Of a stretch of DNA of 40,857 bases, positions 13,179-23,699 are shown piece after piece (position 1 is the stretch's first letter; each line of letters starts with the position of its first letter). This DNA is from Paramagnetospirillum caucaseum. Lineage in GTDB: Bacteria; Pseudomonadota; Alphaproteobacteria; Rhodospirillales; Magnetospirillaceae. The translations under genes and the position numbers were made by a program. The notes beneath the pieces were generated by a model that was not told where the DNA came from, searched no databases, and worked only from the letters and a program-made list of their open reading frames with translations. The stretch covers positions 1 to 40,857 of the forward strand of contig NZ_AONQ01000041.1 in NCBI RefSeq assembly GCF_000342045.1, given 5' to 3'.

Positions 13179-14057
13179 TTACAGATCCGCCAGTTCCACC
13201 TCGGGCGCCGGGCCCAGCGCCGGGAACAGCTTTCCCACCATGCGGGCGAAGCGTTCCGGCGCGTCGGTGGAGATCAGCTGCAGGCCGCCGCCGCCCGGGG
13301 GGGCTTCGCGTCCCGCCAGCCGGCGGACCAGCATGGAGGCGGTCGCCTCGGCGCAATCCACCAGGGTGACGTCCGGCCCGGCGAGGCGCGCCAGGGCCGG
13401 GGCCAGCAGGGGGAAATGGGTGCAGCCCAGCACCAGGCAGTCGCCGGCCTCGCTGCCGTCGAACAGCGATCCCAGATAATGGCGGGCGACGCTGTCCACG
13501 ATGGGGCCGTCGGTCAGCCCCTCCTCGGCCAGGGCGACGAACAGCGGGCAGGGCACGCAGCGCACCCGGGCGCCTTCGCGGCGCCGCGCGATGGCCCGTT
13601 CGTAGGCCTGGGAGCGGCAGGTGCCCTCGGTGGCCGCCACCACGATGCGGCCGTCCGCCGAGGCCTTGGCCGCGCCGTCGGCGCCCGCCTCGACCACGCC
13701 GAGCACCGGCAGGTGGGGAAAACGCTCGGCGATGGCGTCCAGGGCCACCGCCGAGGCGGTGTTGCAGGCCACCACCAGGGCCTTGATGCCCTTTTCAACC
13801 AGGAATTCAGCCGCCTGCACCGCGTAGCGGGTCACGGTGCGCGGCGATTTGGTGCCGTAGGGCTGGCGCGCCACGTCGCCAAGATAAAGCAATCGCTCGT
13901 CGGGCATGCTGCGCCGGATGGCCGCAGCGATAGTCAGTCCCCCCACCCCGGAGTCGAAAATCCCGACCGGATATGTCGCTGGTATAGCATCGGGTGAGGT
14001 GAACACTGTATGTCCTTGCTGCGAAGTCATTGGAATCTTTTGCCCGAGGGACCACAT
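13179..14057 (-). CDS. murI: Glutamate racemase
   Basis: Converts L- to D-glutamate for peptidoglycan. Catalytic and substrate motifs are complete: GIFDSGVGGLTI (catalytic Asp/Ser), LYLGDVARQPYGTKSP, VVACNTASAVAL (first Cys), and LVLGCTHFPLLAP (second Cys and His). At 292 residues including an N-terminal extension it is slightly longer than usual; the in-frame ATG at 14030 (MTSQQGH) would give a more typical length, and neither start has a clear ribosome site. It is transcribed away from the signalling operon that starts at 14219, and the 160 bases between hold the operon's promoter. Confidence 0.95.
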   Translation of the reverse strand: MWSLGQKIPMTSQQGHTVFTSPDAIPATYPVGIFDSGVGGLTIAAAIRRSMPDERLLYLGDVARQPYGTKSPRTVTRYAVQAAEFLVEKGIKALVVACNTASAVALDAIAERFPHLPVLGVVEAGADGAAKASADGRIVVAATEGTCRSQAYERAIARRREGARVRCVPCPLFVALAEEGLTDGPIVDSVARHYLGSLFDGSEAGDCLVLGCTHFPLLAPALARLAGPDVTLVDCAEATASMLVRRLAGREAPPGGGGLQLISTDAPERFARMVGKLFPALGPAPEVELADL

Positions 14058-14114
14058 GATTGAACGGGAGATGAAGATTCTCCGGTCTTCATGGGAATTC
14101 AGACCGCCACGCTC

Positions 14115-14143
14115 TTGGACAGCCTCGGTAAATATCCTATAAA
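14115..14143 (+). promoter_or_regulatory. Sigma70-type promoter of the six-gene signalling operon
   Basis: TTGGAC (14115-14120) and TATAAA (14138-14143) are 17 bases apart, a near-consensus pair in AT-rich sequence, predicting transcription from about 14150 into the gene at 14219. Just upstream is an inverted repeat ATGAAGA / TCTTCAT (about 14079-14100) that could be an operator. Confidence 0.6.
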
Positions 14144-14218
14144 CAGAGCCTGCTTCTAATCGCTTCGGCGGTTCGGTTCAACCGTCACCCGGTGGGAAGG
14201 ATACGGGTCTTGGAATTG

Positions 14219-15055
14219 ATGGGGCAATCCAGTATCGCGGGGGGCGCCGGAGCCTGCCTGCCGCCGGCGCGTCCGGTACGCTGGTCGCTGGCCCGCAAGG
14301 TCTCGCTGGCCCTGGTTTCCATTCTGCTGTCCACCCTGCTGCTGACCGCCTTCTTCGCCTATTACAAGTTCGAAAGCGTCTATTCCGCCCAGGTGCAGTC
14401 CCGCTACTCCTTCGTGGTGTTCACCATCAAGAAGCGGATCGAGGACAGTCTCAACCTGGGGTTCGCCCTGCGCCAACTGCGCCAGGTACAGGAAATCATC
14501 GAGCGCGAGAAATCGCGCGATTCCCAGATCCTGGCGGTGGAGGTCTACGACTACCGGGGCGAGGTGCTGTTCGACACCGACCGCGGCGCCATCGGCACCA
14601 GGGTGTCGGATTCCCTGGCCGAGGCCATTCGCAGCGGCATGCAGCAATCCTTCAGCGTGGTGGACGAGGACAACCTGATCGTCGGCCTGCCCCTGGTCAA
14701 CAACCTGGGCAAGGTTGAAGGCGGCGTGGTGCTGCGCTATCCCATGGCCTATGTGGAGAAGGGGGTTTCCGGGCTGCTCAGCCAGTTGCTCAAGAGCATC
14801 GCCATCGCCCTGGCGGCGGCCTCGGTGGTGGCGGTCGGCGGATTGTACATCCTGTTCGGCGGCGTCGGACGCAAGCTGGGCAGCATGGAAAAGACCATGG
14901 GCGAGGTGCTCTCGGTGGGCGGGCAGGCGATCCCCGAGAGCGGCGGCGATTCCTTCGAGGCGCGCTTCGCCGAGTTTGTCGGCAAGACCCGCGAGACCAT
15001 CGACCACGTCAAGGACGCCACCGACGAGGTCGGCCGTCTTGACCGGCTGATGTGA
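14219..15055 (+). CDS. Membrane sensor protein with periplasmic domain, no output domain
   Basis: A 278-residue protein: N-terminal cytoplasmic tail, membrane helix at about 31-52 (VSLALVSILLSTLLLTAFF), a periplasmic domain of about 140 residues with a PAS/Cache-like look (ILAVEVYDYRGEVLFDTDRGAIGTRVSD), a second helix at about 194-215 and a short HAMP-like cytoplasmic tail. There is no kinase, cyclase or methyl-acceptor region. The DTDRGAIG and LVNNLGKVEGGVVLRYPM stretches resemble sensor domains of chemoreceptors and histidine kinases. A GTG at 14192 could add nine residues. It is the first gene of the operon, and its layout is repeated in the second and fifth products. Confidence 0.65.
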   Translation: MGQSSIAGGAGACLPPARPVRWSLARKVSLALVSILLSTLLLTAFFAYYKFESVYSAQVQSRYSFVVFTIKKRIEDSLNLGFALRQLRQVQEIIEREKSRDSQILAVEVYDYRGEVLFDTDRGAIGTRVSDSLAEAIRSGMQQSFSVVDEDNLIVGLPLVNNLGKVEGGVVLRYPMAYVEKGVSGLLSQLLKSIAIALAAASVVAVGGLYILFGGVGRKLGSMEKTMGEVLSVGGQAIPESGGDSFEARFAEFVGKTRETIDHVKDATDEVGRLDRLM

Positions 15056-15065
15056 GGGGGCGGCC

Positions 15066-17159
15066 ATGATCCTCGACCGCACCCGCCCGCTGTTCATCCG
15101 CCTGCTGCTGCTGGTGGTGCTGGTGCTGGTGCCGCCGGTGGCGTGGATCGCCCATCAGGCCACCGGCGAGTTCAGCCGCGGCCTGATTCCCGAGATGGAC
15201 AAGAAGGCCGAGGCCATCGGCCGCGATCTGGAGCAGTCCATCGAACGGGCGGTCGGCTACGGTATTCCTCTCGACCAGTTGCAGGGGATGGACCAGTTCT
15301 TCGCCCCCGTCCTGGCCGCCAACCCGGAAATCCGCTATCTGGCGGTGACCGACCGCGCCGGCAAGGTGCTGTTCATCGAAGGCGCCGAGCGGTCGGTGCT
15401 GGAAGCCGTCTATGGCGGCGCCGACTTCGCCGCCGGAACGGAGCATTCGCGCAAGCTGGCGCTGGGCGGTTTCATCGATCTGGCGCAGCCGTTGGCCATC
15501 AAGGGCGCTCGCATCGGCCACATCCATGTGGGCATGGACCAGGATTACGTCGGAGGCCGCCTGCAGGAGATTCTCGTCGATCTGGCGGTGGTCACCCTGG
15601 GGGCGCTGCTGGTGGCGGTGGAGATCCTGCTGTTCGTGGTGACCTTCAACATCACCGGCCCCATGCGGGTGGTGGGCACGGTGATGGAACGGGTGCGGCG
15701 CGGCGATTTCAGCTGTTCGGCCGGCGTCACCTCCGACGACGAGGTGGGGCGCTTCGTGCACGGCTTCAACGGCGCCATCCGGCTGGCCGACCAGTTGTTC
15801 CGCCGGCTGGAGGCCTATATCGACGAGGTCAAGGCCGCCCATTTCGATGCCGGCGTGGTCGAGAAGGTCAAGGACATCGAGTCCCGGGTGCGCTTCCTGT
15901 TCCGCTTCGCCCGCAACGGCCGGCCCGAGATCGTCAACGAGCACCAGGCCACCGACATCCGCCTGCCGCTGTTCCTTTTCGTGTTCGCGGAAGAGATCTC
16001 GCGCTCGTTCATGCCGCTCTACATCCGCGACCTCTACGCCCCCATTCCCGGCCTGACGCCGGAACTGGCCATGGGCCTGCCCATCGCCCTGTTCATGCTG
16101 GTGATCGCCCTGGCCTCGCCCTCGGCCTCGCTGCTGGCCAACCGGCTGGGGGCGCGCCGGGTGTTCCTGATCGGGCTGGTGCCGGCCACCATCGGCTTCG
16201 TCATGTCGGCGCTGGCGGTGACCATCTACGACCTGATCGCCTGGCGGGCGGCGACGGCGCTGGGCTACGCCTTCATCACCATGGCCTGCCAGGGCTACAT
16301 CGCCCAGGTGTCGCAGCAGCAGACCCGCACCCAGGGCCTGGGCGTCTATGTGGGCGCCGTGCTGACCGCCAGCGTGTGTGGCACCGGCATCGGCGGCGTG
16401 CTGGCCGAGCGGGTGGGCTTCCGCGTCACCTTCCTGGTGGCCGGCGCGCTGACGGTGATCACCGCCGTACTGATCTGGCGCCTGTTGGACAGCACCCAGC
16501 CGCAAGCCGAGGGGCCCAGCCCGCGCAAGCGCGACTTCCTGCGGCTGCTGCGCAACTGGCGCTTTTCGGCGCTGGTGGCCTTCGCCGCCATTCCCGCCAA
16601 GATGGCGCTCACCGGCTTCCTGTTCTTCCTGGTGCCGCTGACGCTCTCCCAGAACCCGTCCCTCGACCTGGGGGACGTGGCCCGGATGATGATGGCCTAT
16701 CCGGTGTCGGTGGTGCTGCTGTCGCCGCTGGTGGCCCGCTTCGCCGACCGGGTGGGGTGGCGGGTCGGGCTGGTGGCGGCGGGTGGCCTGCTGGGCGGGG
16801 CCGGGCTGGTGCTGCCCGCCTTCTGGGACGAGCCGGTCCTGGCGGTGCAGGCGGCCATCCTGCTGCTGGGCGTCTCGCACGGCCTGTCGGCCTCGCCGCA
16901 GCTGGCCATGATCCCCGATCTGTGCTGGACCGAGTGCCGGGCCATCGGCCAGACCAACGTGCTGGCCTTCCTGCGTCTGGCCGAGCGCATCGGCAGCTTC
17001 GCCGGGCCGCTGCTGGCGGCGGCGCTGATCCCGCTTTACGGCCATCAGGGGGCCATCGTGGCGCTGGGCTGGCTGGTGCTGGGCATGGCGGCGGTGTTCG
17101 CCCTGCTGTCCTTCGCCTACCATGCCGGTCCCCATATCGAGACGGAGTGGGGGGAATGA
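15066..17159 (+). CDS. Periplasmic sensor-HAMP-MFS transporter fusion
   Basis: A 697-residue protein in two halves. Residues 1-255 are a sensor: membrane helix 10-30, a periplasmic domain with the Cache-like IRYLAVTDRAGKVLFIEGAE, a second helix at about 169-196 and a HAMP domain (NITGPMRVVGTVMERVRRGDF ... DDEVGRFVHGF). Residues about 298-690 form a 12-helix major facilitator transporter with the loop motif [13 protein letters not shown] between helices 2 and 3 and ADRVGWRVG between helices 8 and 9. I know of no characterised MFS protein controlled by a covalently linked HAMP sensor. A frame fusion error is unlikely, since one open frame spans both. The gene starts ten bases after gene 1 with a GAGGGGG ribosome site. 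Confidence 0.8.
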   Translation: MILDRTRPLFIRLLLLVVLVLVPPVAWIAHQATGEFSRGLIPEMDKKAEAIGRDLEQSIERAVGYGIPLDQLQGMDQFFAPVLAANPEIRYLAVTDRAGKVLFIEGAERSVLEAVYGGADFAAGTEHSRKLALGGFIDLAQPLAIKGARIGHIHVGMDQDYVGGRLQEILVDLAVVTLGALLVAVEILLFVVTFNITGPMRVVGTVMERVRRGDFSCSAGVTSDDEVGRFVHGFNGAIRLADQLFRRLEAYIDEVKAAHFDAGVVEKVKDIESRVRFLFRFARNGRPEIVNEHQATDIRLPLFLFVFAEEISRSFMPLYIRDLYAPIPGLTPELAMGLPIALFMLVIALASPSASLLANRLGARRVFLIGLVPATIGFVMSALAVTIYDLIAWRAATALGYAFITMACQGYIAQVSQQQTRTQGLGVYVGAVLTASVCGTGIGGVLAERVGFRVTFLVAGALTVITAVLIWRLLDSTQPQAEGPSPRKRDFLRLLRNWRFSALVAFAAIPAKMALTGFLFFLVPLTLSQNPSLDLGDVARMMMAYPVSVVLLSPLVARFADRVGWRVGLVAAGGLLGGAGLVLPAFWDEPVLAVQAAILLLGVSHGLSASPQLAMIPDLCWTECRAIGQTNVLAFLRLAERIGSFAGPLLAAALIPLYGHQGAIVALGWLVLGMAAVFALLSFAYHAGPHIETEWGE

Positions 17160-18181
17160 GACGACTCGTCACCCTGATCCTGGCGGCATGCGCCCTGGCC
17201 CTGTCCGGGCCTGCCGGGGCGGCCGAGCCGGGGGCCAAGCCGTTCCGCATCTACATGGCCCTGTGGCGGGGCTGGGAGGATGCCGCCCAGGGCTTCAAGG
17301 ACTATTTCGCCAACCAGGGCATTCCGGTGGAGCTGATCATCCGCGACGCCGGCCAGGACAAGGCCAAGCTCAAGGATTTCGTCGCCGAGGCCAAGGCGCT
17401 GAAGGTGGATCTGGTGTTCACCTGGGGCACCACGGTCAGCGAGGAGATGCTGGGCCGTTTCGATTCCGCCGACCCGGCGCGGCACATCACCGACATCCCG
17501 GCGGTGTTCGCGGTGGTGTCGCAGCCGGTGGGCGGCGTGGTGCCCAGCCTGTCGTCGTCGGAGCGCAACATCACCGGCACCCTGTACCTGGTACCCATGG
17601 AGACCCAGGTCAACCTGATCCAGTCCTACCGGCCGGTGAAGCGGCTGGGCATGGTCTATAATCCGCTGGAGCGCAATTCCCAGGTGGCGGCCGAGCAGCT
17701 GGACGGCATCGGCAAGGCCACCGGCTTCGAGGTGGTGGCCCTGCCGGTGGATGTGGCCGAGGGCAAGCCCAAGCCGGCCAGCATCGCGCTCAAGGTGGCG
17801 GAGATCAAGGCGGCGCGGGTGGATTTCCTCTACATTCCGCCCGACACCTTCCTCAACATCAACCGCGACATCCTGACCCAGGCGGCGCTCGACCACGCCA
17901 TCCCCACCTTCGCGGCGGCGGAGAATCCGGTGGTGACCTCCAAGGCGATGTTCGGCGGCGTCTACCGCTACTACACGGTGGGCCAGCTGACTGCCTACAA
18001 GGCCGAGCAGATCCTGGTCCGCAAGATCGCTCCCAAGGACATTCCCATCGATGCGCCCAAGCGGCTGTCGGTGCTGATCAACATGCCGGTGGTGCGGCAG
18101 ATCGGTCTCTTTCCCCCCATGAAGCTGATGGGGCTGGCCGAGATCATCGACCGCACCGAGGCCAAGGAGAACAAGCCTTGA
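17157..18181 (+). CDS. ABC-type substrate-binding protein, PF04392 family
   Basis: A 341-residue periplasmic binding protein with signal peptide (RLVTLILAACALALSGPAGAAEP) and the ABC_sub_bind (PF04392) pattern: FRIYMALWRGWEDAAQGFKD, DLVFTWGTTVSEEML, IPAVFAVVSQPV, RLGMVYNPLERNSQ and PTFAAAENPVV. The family binds Trp/Tyr-like amino acids in some ABC systems, but many members stand beside signalling genes. No permease or ATPase gene is nearby, so it more likely presents a ligand to the neighbouring sensors or the MFS half of gene 2. Its ATG overlaps the preceding stop (ATGA). Confidence 0.85.
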
Positions 18182-19092
18182 TCACCTCCCACCCGCCCCT
18201 CCGCATTCTGGTCTGCACCAAGATGGACCTGGCGGGGGCCTTGATTCTCAACACCCTGCTGCCGCATCTGGCCGGCGACACGGTGATGGTGCTGATGAGC
18301 GAGAAGACGCGGCCCGTCGAGAACACCGTGCCCGAACTGGCGGAGATCAAGTTCTTCGAGCGCGACCTGCCCATGGACATCCTGTTCCCGCTGCTCGACC
18401 GGGCGGAAGCGTCCGGCGTCGGAGAGGGGGGGGCGCCGCTGCTGACCTTCGCCGGGCTGTCGCAGCGCTACGGCATCACCATCGAAAGCATCTCCGACCT
18501 CAACGGGCCGGAGGGCGAGGCCCGCATCCGCGCCTTCGCCCCCGACCTGACCATCTCGGCGCGTTTCTCGCTGATCTTCAAGCCCAACACCTACGATATC
18601 CCCCGGCTCGGCACCTACAACATCCATCCCGGCGCCCTGCCGCGCTATGCCGGGCTGTTCGCGCCGTTCCGCTGCCTGCTCGACGGCTCCGATTCCATCG
18701 GCTGCACCCTGCACCGGGTGGACAAGGGCATCGACACCGGCCCCATCGTCGGTATCGGCTATCTGCCCATCGAGCGGCAACGCTCGCTGCTCTGGCACGT
18801 GGTCAACACCTACCAGCCGGGCCTCGCCCTGTTCCTTGCCATGCTGGCCGGGCTGCGCCAGGGCCGCCAGCCCGAATACGCGGCGCAGGATTTCAGCCTG
18901 CGCCAGTACGGCTCGCTGCCGGGTCCCGAGCCCTTCGCCGCCTTCAAGGCCAAGGGGCTGAAACTGTTCGAACCGGCCGAGTATCTGGAGATACTGTCGG
19001 GCTTCCTGCCGCCGGACATGGCCATGCCCGGCGCGGTGGCCAACGCGGTGGTCAACGGGCGGGGGGATGCATGCTGCTCCGCACCCGCGTAA
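18178..19092 (+). CDS. Formyltransferase-family enzyme (formyl_trans_N fold)
   Basis: A 304-residue protein with the N10-formyl-THF-dependent formyltransferase fold. The catalytic Asn-His-Asp set is visible: YNIHPGALPRYAGLFAPFRC gives Asn and His, and HRVDKGIDTGPIVG gives Asp. The N-terminus (RILVCTKMDLAGALILNTLLPHL) is unlike Fmt or ArnA, so this is neither the methionyl-tRNA nor the L-Ara4N enzyme; a sugar-nucleotide or amino-compound N-formylase is possible. The start is an unusual TTG that overlaps the upstream stop (TTGA) but has a strong AAGGAG ribosome site eight bases away. The 3' end overlaps the next gene by 22 bases. A biosynthetic enzyme inside a sensor operon is unexpected. Confidence 0.75.
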   Translation: MITSHPPLRILVCTKMDLAGALILNTLLPHLAGDTVMVLMSEKTRPVENTVPELAEIKFFERDLPMDILFPLLDRAEASGVGEGGAPLLTFAGLSQRYGITIESISDLNGPEGEARIRAFAPDLTISARFSLIFKPNTYDIPRLGTYNIHPGALPRYAGLFAPFRCLLDGSDSIGCTLHRVDKGIDTGPIVGIGYLPIERQRSLLWHVVNTYQPGLALFLAMLAGLRQGRQPEYAAQDFSLRQYGSLPGPEPFAAFKAKGLKLFEPAEYLEILSGFLPPDMAMPGAVANAVVNGRGDACCSAPA

Positions 19093-21791
19093 CGCTCATC
19101 GTCACCGTCACCTATTCCCTGCTGGTGGCGGGGTTGTTCTTCGCCGGCCTGAAGAACGAGGAACTGGCCGACGAGCGTTATGTCCAGGCCACCCTCAACG
19201 GCCAGCAGATCTTCTGGGACAAGCTGGTGGAGAATACCGTCCAGCGCCTGGAAGCCGCCGCGCCGCTGCTGACCGCCAACCAGGAGATGATCGCCGCCAT
19301 CGCCCGCAAAAGCCCGAGCGAGGCGCGCGAGGCCATGGCCCCGACCATCGCCGGGCTGGCCCGGCGCGGTGTCGGGCGGGCCGAGATCGTTGGCCTGGAC
19401 GGCGACCTGCTCTATTCGTCCCAGGGTTCGCTGCTGGACACGCCCCTGGTGGATGCAGGCACGGTGCGGCTGATCGCCGAGAGCGGCAAGGCGCGCACCG
19501 GCATTACCCAGAACAGCGACAAGCAGTTCATCGCCGCCATCACCGTGCCGCTGGCCGGGCTGGACGGGACGGTGGTCGGCGTCGCCACCATCGTTTCCGA
19601 TCTGCGGCCGCCGCTGGAGGAGTTCAAGGCCTCGACCGGGTCCGATGTCTTCCTGGTGGACCGGGTCGGGCAGATGACCGACGGCACCAATGACCTGCTG
19701 TGGAAGGTGTTCGAGTCCAAGATTTCGGTCCGCAAGAGCCGGCTGGAGAGCTGGCGCGACGGCTCGCGCTTCTATTCCGTGGTGGTGTTCCCGCTGTCCG
19801 ACGGCGAGGGCAGGGTGATCGGCGCCCTGGTCAGCGTGCGCGATTCCACCGAGACCCAGGCCCGCCAGCACGAGATCCGCATGATCGCCATCGGGGCGGT
19901 GGGGCTGTTCCTGGTCTTCGTGCTGGCCGTGTTCTCGGTCTATCTGCGCCGCTCGTTCGATCCCCTCGACCAGGCCATCGCGGTGCTCAACGCCTTGTCC
20001 CGGGGCGATACCTCGGTGATGCTCGACGTGCGCCACGACAACGACGAGATCGGCCGCATCGCCAGCACGGTGGGAGTGTTCCGCGAGAACGCCATCAAGA
20101 TCGACCTGCTGGAGGAGCGGCGCGAGCGCCAGCGCCGCCGCCAGGAACTGTTCATCCGCCTGCAGATGCTGCGCCTGTCCGAGATGCTGGAGCAGGACGC
20201 CCGCGAGGCGGTGCTGGACGACCTCAAGCAGATCGAGGAACTGTCCAGCCGCCCGACCGCCGGCGCCGAGGGCGGCGACGGCTCCAAGGGCGAGCTGGAG
20301 GTGCTGGCGGTGGCCTTCCAGACCATGTCGTCGCGCATCCGCGAACAGCACGAGCGTCTGGAATCGCTGATTGCCGAGCGCACCCGCGACGTGGAGATCC
20401 TGCGCGAGGCCCTGCGCACCCGCGACCAGCTGGCGGCGCTGCGCCAGGAACTGGACTTCGCCCGGGAATTACAGCTGTCCTCGCTGCCCCAGGTGTTCCC
20501 GCCCTTCCCCGAACGGGGCGAGTTCCAGATTCACGCCTCCATGGTGCCGGCCAAGGAGGTGGGGGGCGATTTCTACGACTTCTTCCTCATCGACCACCAC
20601 CACCTGGGCTTCGTCATCGGCGACGCCTCGGGCAAGGGCGTGCCGGCGGCCATGTTCATCGCCATTACCCGCTCGCTGGTCAAGGCGGTGGCGCCGCTGT
20701 CCAGTTCGCCCGGCGAATGCATGGCCTTCGTCAACACCATGCTGGCCCGCGACAACCCCCAGACCCTGTTCGCCACCTGCTTCTACGGCGTGCTCGACAC
20801 CCGCAGCGGCGAGGTGGGGTTCTGCAATGCCGGCCACCCGCCGCCCATGATCCTGCGGGCCGACGGTTCCGTGCAGGCCATCCGCGACGTCTCGGGCGTG
20901 GCGTTGGGGGTGCTGGAGGATCTGGAATACGAGACCGGCACCTTCACCCTGAATCCCGGCGAAGTGGTCCATCTCTATACCGACGGCGTCACCGAGGCCC
21001 AGAATTCCGCCGATGCCCTCTATGACGAGCCGCGCCTGATCGCCGAACTGGGCGGTACCGAGGATTCAAATCCCGAGGCGGTGATCGCCGGGGTGCTGCG
21101 CTCGGTGGAGGCCTTCGTCGGCAACGCGCCACAATTCGACGATATCACCATGTTGACGCTGCGCTTCGATCAGGCTTCCATGGAGGCGGATGCGCCCATG
21201 GAAGTCCGGCCGCGGCTGATGCTGACCGGCTTCCAGGCGCCGGGAGGGAACGACATGGACGGCAGGGGCATGCCCGCGCCCGCGGACGAGATTGCGGCGG
21301 CTTCCGTGCCGCCCGCCATCGTACCGCCCGCCGTCACTCCGGCCCAGCGTCCGCCGTTCCAGGACATGGAACCCAAGCGGGCGGCCATGGTCATCGGCAA
21401 CGATGTCGCGGAACTGGAGCGGCTGGCGGATTTGGTGGACGTCTTCATCGAGGAGAACGGCCTGCCGGAAAAGCTGGCCTTCAACCTCAATGTCTGCCTG
21501 GACGAATTGATCACCAACATTATCTCGTACGGATACGATGACGAGGATGCCCATGAAATCCAGGTGGAGTTCGTCTACGATGGCCGGGAATTCGTGACCC
21601 GCATTATCGACGACGCCAAGGAGTACGATCCTTTTACCGAGGCGCCCATTCCCGACCTCGACCTGGACGTCGAGGACCGGCCCATCGGCGGGCTGGGGGT
21701 CTTCCTGGTGAAGGAGTTCATGGATGGAACCGAGTATGCGCACGAGGGCGGCCGCAACACCACCACCCTGCGCAAGACGATTTCGGCATAG
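19071..21791 (+). CDS. Sensor-HAMP-PP2C phosphatase-HATPase fusion (SpoIIE/RsbW type)
   Basis: A 906-residue signalling protein. Domains in order: membrane helix 5-25; periplasmic sensor (double Cache-like) 26-268; helix 270-292; HAMP 290-345 (SFDPLDQAIAVLNALSRGD...NDEIGRIAS); coiled coil to about 455; SpoIIE-type PP2C phosphatase 460-705 with metal motifs KEVGGDFYDFF, IGDASGKGVPAAMF, YTDGVTEAQN and FDDITMLTL; Pro-rich linker; RsbW-like HATPase 773-906 with the N-box CLDELITNIISYGY and RPIGGLGVFLV. Both the phosphatase and the kinase that act on a STAS antagonist are thus in one chain, and the STAS gene follows. The G1 box reads DDAKEYDP, with Ala where Gly is usual, which may weaken ATP binding. 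It overlaps the upstream gene by 22 bases. Confidence 0.9.
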   Translation: MLLRTRVTLIVTVTYSLLVAGLFFAGLKNEELADERYVQATLNGQQIFWDKLVENTVQRLEAAAPLLTANQEMIAAIARKSPSEAREAMAPTIAGLARRGVGRAEIVGLDGDLLYSSQGSLLDTPLVDAGTVRLIAESGKARTGITQNSDKQFIAAITVPLAGLDGTVVGVATIVSDLRPPLEEFKASTGSDVFLVDRVGQMTDGTNDLLWKVFESKISVRKSRLESWRDGSRFYSVVVFPLSDGEGRVIGALVSVRDSTETQARQHEIRMIAIGAVGLFLVFVLAVFSVYLRRSFDPLDQAIAVLNALSRGDTSVMLDVRHDNDEIGRIASTVGVFRENAIKIDLLEERRERQRRRQELFIRLQMLRLSEMLEQDAREAVLDDLKQIEELSSRPTAGAEGGDGSKGELEVLAVAFQTMSSRIREQHERLESLIAERTRDVEILREALRTRDQLAALRQELDFARELQLSSLPQVFPPFPERGEFQIHASMVPAKEVGGDFYDFFLIDHHHLGFVIGDASGKGVPAAMFIAITRSLVKAVAPLSSSPGECMAFVNTMLARDNPQTLFATCFYGVLDTRSGEVGFCNAGHPPPMILRADGSVQAIRDVSGVALGVLEDLEYETGTFTLNPGEVVHLYTDGVTEAQNSADALYDEPRLIAELGGTEDSNPEAVIAGVLRSVEAFVGNAPQFDDITMLTLRFDQASMEADAPMEVRPRLMLTGFQAPGGNDMDGRGMPAPADEIAAASVPPAIVPPAVTPAQRPPFQDMEPKRAAMVIGNDVAELERLADLVDVFIEENGLPEKLAFNLNVCLDELITNIISYGYDDEDAHEIQVEFVYDGREFVTRIIDDAKEYDPFTEAPIPDLDLDVEDRPIGGLGVFLVKEFMDGTEYAHEGGRNTTTLRKTISA

Positions 21792-21805
21792 GAGAGTTCT
21801 AGGTT

Positions 21806-22135
21806 ATGGAAATCCGTGAAGAACAGGCTGGCGACGCCACCGTGCTGGTTCCCCTCGCCCGGGTGGACAGTTCGACGGCCAAGGCCTTCGAGGCCCGCGT
21901 CCTGGCGGTGGTCAACGCCGGCGCGCCCAAGATTCTGATCGATTTCGGCGAGTTGGACTATATCTCCAGCGCCGGGCTGCGCGTGGTGCTGGTGGGGGCC
22001 AAGATGACGCGGGGCACCCGCAAGTTCGCGCTGTGCTCCATGCGGCCCCATATCCGCGAGGTGTTCGACGTCTCGGGCTTCGCCAAGATCCTGTCCATCT
22101 ACGCCGACCGCGAGGCCGCGCTGGCCGCCCTGTGA
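21806..22135 (+). CDS. STAS-domain anti-sigma factor antagonist
   Basis: A 109-residue single STAS domain, the SpoIIAA/RsbV type. The phosphoacceptor loop is intact (ELDYISSAGLRVVL, with the usual Ser-Ser-Ala-Gly-Leu), preceded by ARVDSSTAKAFE and followed by FALCSMRPHIREVFDVSGF. Its phosphorylation state should be set by the kinase and phosphatase domains of the preceding gene product, 14 bases upstream with a TAGGAGAG ribosome site. No sigma factor or separate anti-sigma gene is present, so the downstream target is elsewhere, or is the HATPase of the same fusion protein. Confidence 0.92.
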   Translation: MEIREEQAGDATVLVPLARVDSSTAKAFEARVLAVVNAGAPKILIDFGELDYISSAGLRVVLVGAKMTRGTRKFALCSMRPHIREVFDVSGFAKILSIYADREAALAAL

Positions 22136-22250
22136 CGGCATCGCGTCAGGGCGGCTGGAATGTCTTCCTCGTCTGCGCTACCATGAGGGCTCGACCCTAA
22201 CCGCCCCACCATGGGCAAGACCAGGGCTGCGGGCCGAGGAGGGCAGGACC

Positions 22251-22481
22251 ATGAACGATCCCTACAAGAATATGCTCGAGATGCAGCAGGCCATGCTGGA
22301 AGGCTGGATGAATTCCACCAACCAGATGATGCAGTACTGGAAGCACCTGATCGAATTGCAGGAGCGCCTGATGCAGCACGCCACGTTCGGCCGCGACCAC
22401 GTGGAGATCGACGACGGGCCGTCTTTCACCGGCAAGTACGGCAAACGCCGCTTCGACATCGATCCCGAACGGGACGTCTGA
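22251..22481 (+). CDS. Small helical protein of unknown function
   Basis: A 76-residue protein preceded by a GGAGGGC ribosome site. The first 45 residues are strongly helical and Met/Gln-rich (NMLEMQQAMLEGWMNSTNQMMQYW then KHLIELQERLMQH), recalling short phasin-like or granule-associated segments; the rest is polar and acidic (GRDHVEIDDGPSF...FDIDPERDV). I do not recognise a family with confidence. It lies 115 bases after the STAS gene, where I see no terminator, so some read-through is possible, and it is followed by its own terminator. Confidence 0.6.
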   Translation: MNDPYKNMLEMQQAMLEGWMNSTNQMMQYWKHLIELQERLMQHATFGRDHVEIDDGPSFTGKYGKRRFDIDPERDV

Positions 22482-22500
22482 CCCGTCCCAGAGCCCCACG

Positions 22501-22520
22501 GCCCCGCCGCGGGGCTTTTT
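22501..22520 (+). terminator. Rho-independent terminator after the small helical gene
   Basis: GCCCCG-CCG-CGGGGC followed by TTTTT, 20 bases after the stop at 22481. It separates this gene from rodA, which ends at 22536 on the other strand. Confidence 0.8.
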
Positions 22521-22535
22521 CTTTGGGCTCCGGCC

Positions 22536-23699
22536 TCAATCCTCGCCCATGCCGCGCCGCGAGATGGGGATGTCGCGGTGGATATAGGCGCTCATCACCA
22601 GCCCCCAGCCCAGCAGCAGCGACAGCATGGCGGTGCCGCCGTAGGAAATCAGCGGCAGCGGCACGCCGACCACCGGCACCAATCCCATCACCATGGCGGT
22701 GTTGATGAAGAAGTAGAGGAAGAAGGTGGTGGCGATGCCGTGGGCCACCAGCCGGCCGAACTGCGAGCGGCAGCGGATGGCGATGGCATAGCCGTAGGCC
22801 AGCAGCAGGGCGTAAAGGCCGAGCAGCACCAACCCGCCCATCATACCCCATTCCTCGGCGAACATGGTGAAGATGAAGTCGGTCTGCTTCTCGGGCAGGA
22901 AGTTGAGGCGGCTTTGCGTTCCCATCATGTAGCCCTTGCCGAACAAGCCGCCCGAGCCGAGCGCGATTTTGGACTGGGTGATGTGGTAGCCGGCCCCCAG
23001 GGGATCGCTCTCGGGGTTGAGGAACACCAGCACCCGCTTCTTCTGGTATTCGCGCAGGAACTGCCAGGCCACCGGAATGGCGGCCAGGGAACCGGCGATG
23101 ACCACCACGAACTTCCACATGCGGACCCCGGCCATGAAGAACAGGGCGCCCGACGACATGATCAGCATCATGGCGGTGCCGAGATCGGGCTGTTTCAGCA
23201 CCAGGATGGCCGGGGCGAACACCATGATCATCGGCGGGATGAGGAACAGCGGCCGTCCGATCTCCTGCTGGCCGGCGCCGTGGAAATAGCGGGCGAGCGA
23301 CAGGATCAGGGCGATCTTCATGATTTCCGAGGGCTGCAGTTGGATGAAGCCCAGATCGATCCAGCGTTGCGCCCCCATGCCGATGGTGCCCTTCACCTCG
23401 ACCGCCACCAGCAGCACGAAGGCGATGGCGTAGATGCCGTAGGCGTGGCGCATCCAGAAGCGCAGATCGATCATGGCCACGGTGATCATCAGGCCGATGC
23501 CGACGGCGAAGCGGACCATCTGCTTGATGGCCCAGGGTTCCATGGACCCTTGCGCCGCCGAATAGAGCGTGGCGAAGCCCACCGAGGCGATGGCGGTCAG
23601 CACGGCGATCAGCGACCAGTTGATCTGCCAGATTTTGTCGCGCATGGACATTTCGGTGCGGTTGAGGCGCGACGGCGTGCGCGGCAGCGGCCTCAGCAT
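22536..23699 (-). CDS. rodA: Peptidoglycan glycosyltransferase RodA (SEDS family)
   Basis: SEDS-family polymerase that builds glycan strands during elongation with PBP2. 387 residues with about ten membrane helices. Family signatures include GAQRWIDLGFIQLQPSEIMK, VLKQPDLGTAMM, FGKGYMMGTQSRLNFLPEKQTDFIFTMFAEEWG (the catalytic Asp loop) and GVPLPLISYGGTAML near the end. The start at 23699 overlaps the last base of the mrdA stop; an internal Met (MSMRDKIW, about 16 codons in) would also give a normal protein. It is the last gene of the mre operon. Confidence 0.96.
   Translation of the reverse strand: MLRPLPRTPSRLNRTEMSMRDKIWQINWSLIAVLTAIASVGFATLYSAAQGSMEPWAIKQMVRFAVGIGLMITVAMIDLRFWMRHAYGIYAIAFVLLVAVEVKGTIGMGAQRWIDLGFIQLQPSEIMKIALILSLARYFHGAGQQEIGRPLFLIPPMIMVFAPAILVLKQPDLGTAMMLIMSSGALFFMAGVRMWKFVVVIAGSLAAIPVAWQFLREYQKKRVLVFLNPESDPLGAGYHITQSKIALGSGGLFGKGYMMGTQSRLNFLPEKQTDFIFTMFAEEWGMMGGLVLLGLYALLLAYGYAIAIRCRSQFGRLVAHGIATTFFLYFFINTAMVMGLVPVVGVPLPLISYGGTAMLSLLLGWGLVMSAYIHRDIPISRRGMGED

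Follow-up and report, generated by a model that had tools for sequence, protein, structure and literature searches.

A six-gene operon of Paramagnetospirillum caucaseum that sets a predicted partner switch beside a recurring sensor, MFS fusion and binding protein triad

Described systems and layout of the operon

Several described systems resemble parts of the locus analyzed here, according to the available passages of the papers cited. In the HsbR-HsbA system of Pseudomonas aeruginosa, HsbR, like gene 5 of the present operon, joins an RsbW-like kinase to a PP2C phosphatase within a single protein; it sets the serine phosphorylation of a small STAS protein (PMC6482189). The input of HsbR is a cytoplasmic receiver domain, whereas that of gene 5 consists of periplasmic dCache and HAMP domains; gene 5, unlike HsbR as described in those passages, also shares its operon with a binding protein gene and an MFS fusion gene (PMC6482189). 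SiaA of the P. aeruginosa SiaABC system is similarly a HAMP-containing PP2C phosphatase with two transmembrane (TM) segments that acts on a STAS-type protein, but the kinase, SiaB, is a separate protein (PMC7647112). The RbaVWY system of Rhodobacter capsulatus is a further STAS/HATPase/PP2C set from an alphaproteobacterium, and no sigma factor partner of it is known; however, its REC-PP2C phosphatase is encoded elsewhere in the genome, and the available passages describe it without sensors, binding protein or transporter (PMC3999984). Finally, NspS-MbaA, which occurs in an alphaproteobacterium as well, pairs a periplasmic binding protein with a membrane sensor, but its output is c-di-GMP turnover and no MFS part appears in the passages available (PMC9993111). 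No paper on the combination of parts described below was found in the open-access literature (most subscription papers lie outside it, and part of it was represented by titles or abstract starts), in agreement with the initial annotation, which knew of no such system. The partner switch itself is thus of a known kind, and its input cassette is the part that we found undescribed. This new input is a periplasmic dCache domain in the switch protein together with a triad made up of a binding protein, a Cache protein that lacks an output and a Cache-HAMP-MFS fusion.

The window is the whole stretch of P. caucaseum DNA that was analyzed, 40,857 nucleotides in length. As the initial annotation had proposed, it contains six co-oriented plus-strand open reading frames (ORFs), which extend from 14219 (or 14192) to 22135:

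14115..14143, + strand: promoter-like element TTGGAC-17-TATAAA (read by hand; block kept in 6/6 aligned sequences)
14219..15055, + strand: gene 1, putative TM-Cache-TM sensor without output domain, 278 aa (fold match; dN/dS 0.10-0.14)
15066..17159, + strand: gene 2, Cache-HAMP-MFS fusion, 697 aa (MFS_1 over the Pfam cut-off, HAMP and Cache below it)
17156..18181, + strand: gene 3, periplasmic substrate-binding protein, PF04392, 341 aa (Pfam; solved relatives)
18178..19092, + strand: gene 4, formyltransferase (Formyl_trans_N), 304 aa, TTG start, optional member (Pfam; residues)
19071..21791, + strand: gene 5, dCache-HAMP-PP2C(SpoIIE)-HATPase_c_2 protein, 906 aa (Pfam, all over cut-off)
21806..22135, + strand: gene 6, single-domain STAS protein, 109 aa, predicted phospho-acceptor Ser55 (TIGR00377; alignment)

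Counted from ORF ends, the intergenic gaps are +10, -4, -4, -22 and +14; the second had been given as -3, and the other four stand. The promoter had been called near-consensus. Its -35 element TTGGAC (14115-14120) and -10 element TATAAA (14138-14143), separated by 17 bases, are invariant in 6/6 aligned sequences (the window and five relatives), but a promoter scanner that requires T as the last -10 base found none in 13900-22600, and the alternative -35 element, TGGACA with a 16-base spacer (five of six consensus bases), keeps its final A in only 2/6 sequences. The description is therefore generous for the -35 element. Among the window and five relatives, conservation of the leader from the promoter to the start of gene 1 (14138-14219) comes close to that of coding sequence, and since Rfam gave no match over 13900-22700, it is a conserved leader without a known RNA element. 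The start of gene 1 is most likely ATG 14219, with GTG 14192 as the alternative, because three of five aligned relatives (L049, L050 and L052) show indels between the two codons.

Predicted sensors, binding protein and partner switch

Cache-type membrane sensors were recovered in genes 1, 2 and 5, the number initially proposed. Pfam detected that of gene 5 above cut-off and that of gene 2 below it; in gene 1 it gave no match above cut-off (dCache_1, 12.8 versus 45). The AlphaFold2 model of gene 1 (4 sequences; mean pLDDT, 54.5) resembled the extracytoplasmic Cache/PAS domains of WalK, KinD and CitA in a fold search, so that the assignment of gene 1 as a probable membrane sensor is supported by a modest model. 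The sensor stretches of genes 1 and 2 are homologous. Gene 2 matched MFS_1 with 120 bits (cut-off, 33.4) and the 12-TM domain was recovered, whereas its HAMP (22.5 bits; cut-off, 25) and sCache_3_2 (20.3 bits; cut-off, 28.4) matches lie under their cut-offs. The fusion is retained across 17 aligned relatives, in several of which recognizable HAMP residues are gone. Six charged residues of the MFS half (R421, R540, D561, R637, E640 and R641) are invariant in 17/17 aligned sequences and are therefore consistent with a working transporter, as predicted. Gene 3 matched ABC_sub_bind (PF04392) with 83.6 bits and has the solved relatives 6hni, 3lkv and 3lft; against the NCBIfam TrpX tryptophan-binding equivalog it scored 82.7 bits, below the 390 needed. 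It was correctly read as a lone binding protein, because Pfam identified neither an ABC permease nor an ATPase in the operon. The same genome contains two PF04392 matches.

The partner-switching module was likewise borne out, with PP2C, HATPase and STAS domains present and their key residues intact. In gene 5, dCache_3 (27.5 bits), HAMP (34.1), SpoIIE (PF07228; 173) and HATPase_c_2 (PF13581; 86) all lie above the Pfam cut-offs. The PP2C metal-site residues D500, D503, D518, D638, D690 and D691 are present in 28/28 aligned rows, and HATPase residues E812, N816 and D847 are present in all 16 rows that reach this region (12 rows are gapped). The N and G boxes and PF13581 place the domain among RsbW-type HATPases, although it falls short of the NCBIfam RsbW equivalog (29.9 versus 145); the NCBIfam SiaA model gave 66 against a cut-off of 700. 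The HATPase and PP2C domains share one ORF in 27/29 family loci, the other two being cut by contig ends. Judging from the intact residues, gene 5 holds both predicted partner-switch activities in one chain. Gene 6 scored 46.5 bits for STAS (Pfam) and 59.1 for TIGR00377 (cut-off, 53.45), and its Ser55 is invariant in 28/28 aligned sequences. When gene 6 was aligned with 1tid, which we take to be the S58A mutant of SpoIIAA, Ala stood opposite Ser55. By this alignment, Ser55 is the counterpart of the SpoIIAA phosphoserine and the predicted phospho-acceptor.

The genome of P. caucaseum (G000) also has nine STAS matches and 11 HATPase_c_2 matches above cut-off, and a second PP2C-HATPase-STAS set lies on another contig (C54:19296-20587). 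Genes 5 and 6 therefore need not be an exclusive pair, and with the C54 set and a genome total of nine STAS and two PF04392 matches, cross-talk or another partner is possible.

Conservation in the family and the formyltransferase gene

A gene 2 orthologue was found in 30/55 family genomes, that of the window included (E <= 2.1e-187); the named relatives in this group are Phaeospirillum, Magnetospirillum and a Rhodospirillaceae bacterium. Three genomes of the same genus (G034, G035 and G041) have no gene 2 orthologue, with a best match of 2.6e-5 or none. A murI-like gene (Asp_Glu_race) adjoins the operon, in the same order, in 30/30 family loci. All six genes are present in 22 of these loci, counting one split over two contigs, L053 (gene 4 broken), L051 and L077 (gene 1 in two ORFs) and L064 (gene 2 end shifted). 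Two more stop at a contig edge before HATPase and STAS, and the remaining six lack gene 4 only. The expected co-conservation of the six-gene order therefore holds for the order itself, kept in 30/30 family loci, but not for the formyltransferase, missing in 6. All six genes are under purifying selection (dN/dS, 0.04-0.29 in 18 comparisons with three relatives), and together with the kept order this makes the six-gene arrangement more than chance.

Gene 4 matched Formyl_trans_N with 60.5 bits (Pfam). The residues N148, H150 and D186, which we take to be the formyltransferase catalytic Asn-His-Asp set, are intact in 23/23 aligned formyltransferases (alignment A4 holds 23 of 27 sequences; L053, which is broken, was left out, as were L064, L073 and L075). 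It scores below the NCBIfam equivalog cut-offs for both the methionyl-tRNA type (Fmt, 40.5 versus 201.5) and the ArnA type (46.7 versus 777), and sequence and profile searches against solved structures reached methionyl-tRNA, sugar and PurN formyltransferases alike. Its AlphaFold2 model (3 sequences; mean pLDDT, 42.6) was set aside.

The distribution of gene 4 differs from that of its neighbors. In G016, which has no gene 2 orthologue (best match, 6.0e-6), the formyltransferase gene is flanked by the murI-like gene and a PAS-GGDEF-EAL gene, without its operon neighbors. It occurred in 3/385 class-sample genomes (own included; E <= 1e-20), and in both of the others it lies beside the triad of genes 1, 2 and 3, upstream and co-oriented in G329 and tail to tail in G212. 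In the phylum sample, 10/398 genomes matched (E <= 1e-25), and in 8/8 of those besides the own genome and G212 no operon component was found within the fetched 10.7-19.9 kb. Matches in four f72 genomes were rejected; they are of a different formyltransferase type and cover part of the profile only. Either a single loss or a single gain of the formyltransferase was considered; on the gene 2 tree, its presence and absence need three changes (two to three in bootstraps), of which the starred branches force only one. Thus, the formyltransferase looks like a separable, optional extra of the operon.

The triad elsewhere and readings of the operon

The unit that recurs is a triad of an output-less Cache sensor, a Cache-HAMP-MFS fusion and a PF04392 binding protein. 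Gene 2 was found in 23/385 class-sample genomes, own included (E <= 1e-30). Of the 22 besides the own genome, 17 show all of genes 1 to 3 in the fetched stretch; in two (L093 and L102) the contig stops once genes 1 and 2 have been passed, and three (L106, L125 and L126) deviate from this pattern. Once the family's more distant copies and another two loci are added to the 22, the full triad is present in 23/31 other alphaproteobacterial loci. Its partners vary: they are PP2C/HATPase/STAS genes, a class III cyclase attached to the gene 5-type dCache sensor, or none recognized. A PP2C gene lies in the fetched stretch of 12/22 class genomes carrying gene 2, and PP2C, HATPase and STAS occur together in 7/22 (L108-L110, L116, L122, L123 and L126). 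Triads without any of the three were found in L114, L120, L121, L169 and L184, so that the triad need not signal via gene 5 at all. TRAP transporters are a known case in which a soluble binding protein serves a secondary transporter, as proposed here for the triad, but they are not MFS proteins and have no Cache-HAMP part.

Several loci differ in single components. At L112:14474-16660 and L113:2758-4947, the gene 5-type dCache sensor carries Guanylate_cyc (class III cyclase) and not PP2C; the two counterparts are 84% identical, and the arrangement in L112 marks the input as modular. An MFS-sensor protein without a recognized PF04392 partner is present in L081, L106 and L195-L197 (L195, 18 bits). 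In L081 (6349-10749), a 1466-aa open frame has MFS followed by a Peripla_BP_6 binding domain, and its C terminus, which has no Pfam match, resembles a pentameric channel by eye. At L123:13798-15657, a HATPase_c_2 protein is preceded by a weak match to a class III cyclase (Guanylate_cyc, 20.8 bits; cut-off, 21.9) and adjoins a STAS gene. We set aside the seemingly long HATPase proteins of L109 (584 aa) and L122 (591 aa) as artifacts of stop-to-stop ORF calling, because they have no Pfam match beyond HATPase and blastp similarity is confined to the HATPase part. Finally, a second, strongly diverged gene 2-like membrane protein adjoins the gene 5-type protein at four loci:

L112:12575-14470, diverged gene 2-like protein
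L116:10583-12661, diverged gene 2-like protein
L122:13564-15075, diverged gene 2-like protein
L123:5031-7211, diverged gene 2-like protein

A 17-row profile run against the phylum sample (E <= 1e-60) found 9/398 genomes, of which five lie outside the class. A family search around G737 found 15/111 genomes, and a plasmid search returned 12 records, 11 from Azospirillum and one from Vibrio sp. THAF190c. All three triad components are present in 14 of the 18 outside-class loci that were read. In 8 of these 14 triads the gene 1-like stretch lies within the gene 2 ORF, but such "fused" matches (38-45 bits) are weak evidence since the sensor stretches of genes 1 and 2 are homologous. L195-L197 match well in the MFS half only.

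At 17/18 outside-class loci (L168, L180-L183 and L186-L197), the neighborhood of the cassette consists of type VI secretion genes. In five of these it is followed by VgrG, DUF6931 and PAAR genes, and in 12 it sits between ClpV/TssG and TssK genes; VgrG, PAAR, TssG and TssK were confirmed by domain search in examples, and other neighbors are presumably TssA, TssF and ClpV. One alphaproteobacterial locus (L126:1935-19501) combines PP2C, HATPase, STAS and MFS-sensor proteins with VgrG/ClpV-like genes. By the same test, no VgrG/ClpV-like gene was found at the other 30 alphaproteobacterial and the 30 family loci. In the available passages of PMC3628861, the words "transporter" and "sensor" do not occur.

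We consider it somewhat better than an even proposition that the operon serves the sensing of a periplasmic solute, with the triad and gene 5 setting the state of Ser55 of gene 6, sensor-tuned MFS transport and an accessory formyltransferase. Gene 3 would capture the solute, and the Cache domains of genes 1, 2 and 5 would read either the solute or loaded gene 3, perhaps in a physical complex; by analogy, the binding protein may deliver ligand to the Cache domains as NspS serves MbaA (PMC9993111, in the passages available). Movement of the HAMP domain would tune, or gate, transport by the MFS half in gene 2, and in gene 5 it would shift the balance between the PP2C phosphatase and the RsbW-like kinase. 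That balance would set phosphorylation of Ser55, and the STAS protein would then bind a target. Gene 4 could be an accessory enzyme whose substrate is perhaps the compound that is transported, or else something that the response produces. A single six-part machine, as initially envisaged, is not supported by these data, because the formyltransferase is absent from six of 30 operons and alone at its locus in G016, and because the triad occurs elsewhere with other partner genes or none recognized.

The same distribution could mean that the operon has two jobs, the triad being a self-contained uptake or efflux device and genes 5 and 6 an independent dCache-PP2C/STAS switch with only the promoter in common. 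The five switch-free triads named above and five more with type VI genes (L168, L180, L181, L186 and L187) would be expected on this account, but the gene order retained at 30/30 family loci, and the PP2C gene with a gene 5-type dCache sensor in common in 12/22 class stretches with gene 2, argue for a tie between the two, and we regard separate jobs as rather doubtful. It is somewhat less probable again, and in our view unlikely, that the formyltransferase is integral and makes a formylated compound for sensing by the binding protein or for export by the MFS half. Its rarity in the class sample, where both other copies stand beside the triad in differing orientations, and its translational overlaps of -4 and -22 in the window speak for such a role; its loss from 6/30 operons, its solitary position in G016 and the eight phylum genomes without operon components in the fetched stretches speak against it. 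That the MFS half is a transceptor, a membrane sensor domain that signals only and has lost transport, appears the least probable of these accounts. The diverged gene 2-like proteins beside gene 5 in L112, L116, L122 and L123 have weak or no MFS scores, which would favor this account, but the MFS half of the window is far above cut-off and keeps its charged residues in 17/17 sequences.

For the solute-sensing operon itself, a further and more tentative proposal, which we think possible rather than probable, is that genes 1 to 3 constitute an undescribed class of solute device, a binding protein-served, Cache-HAMP-gated MFS protein that forms a portable input for partner switches, cyclases and type VI secretion. 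If the solute-sensing account is right, it would add a way for bacteria to couple the capture, transport and signaling of one solute. It would also give a defined periplasmic input to partner switches, whose inputs are often unknown, and, through the association of this cassette with type VI secretion genes, it would open the signal for type VI secretion to experiment.
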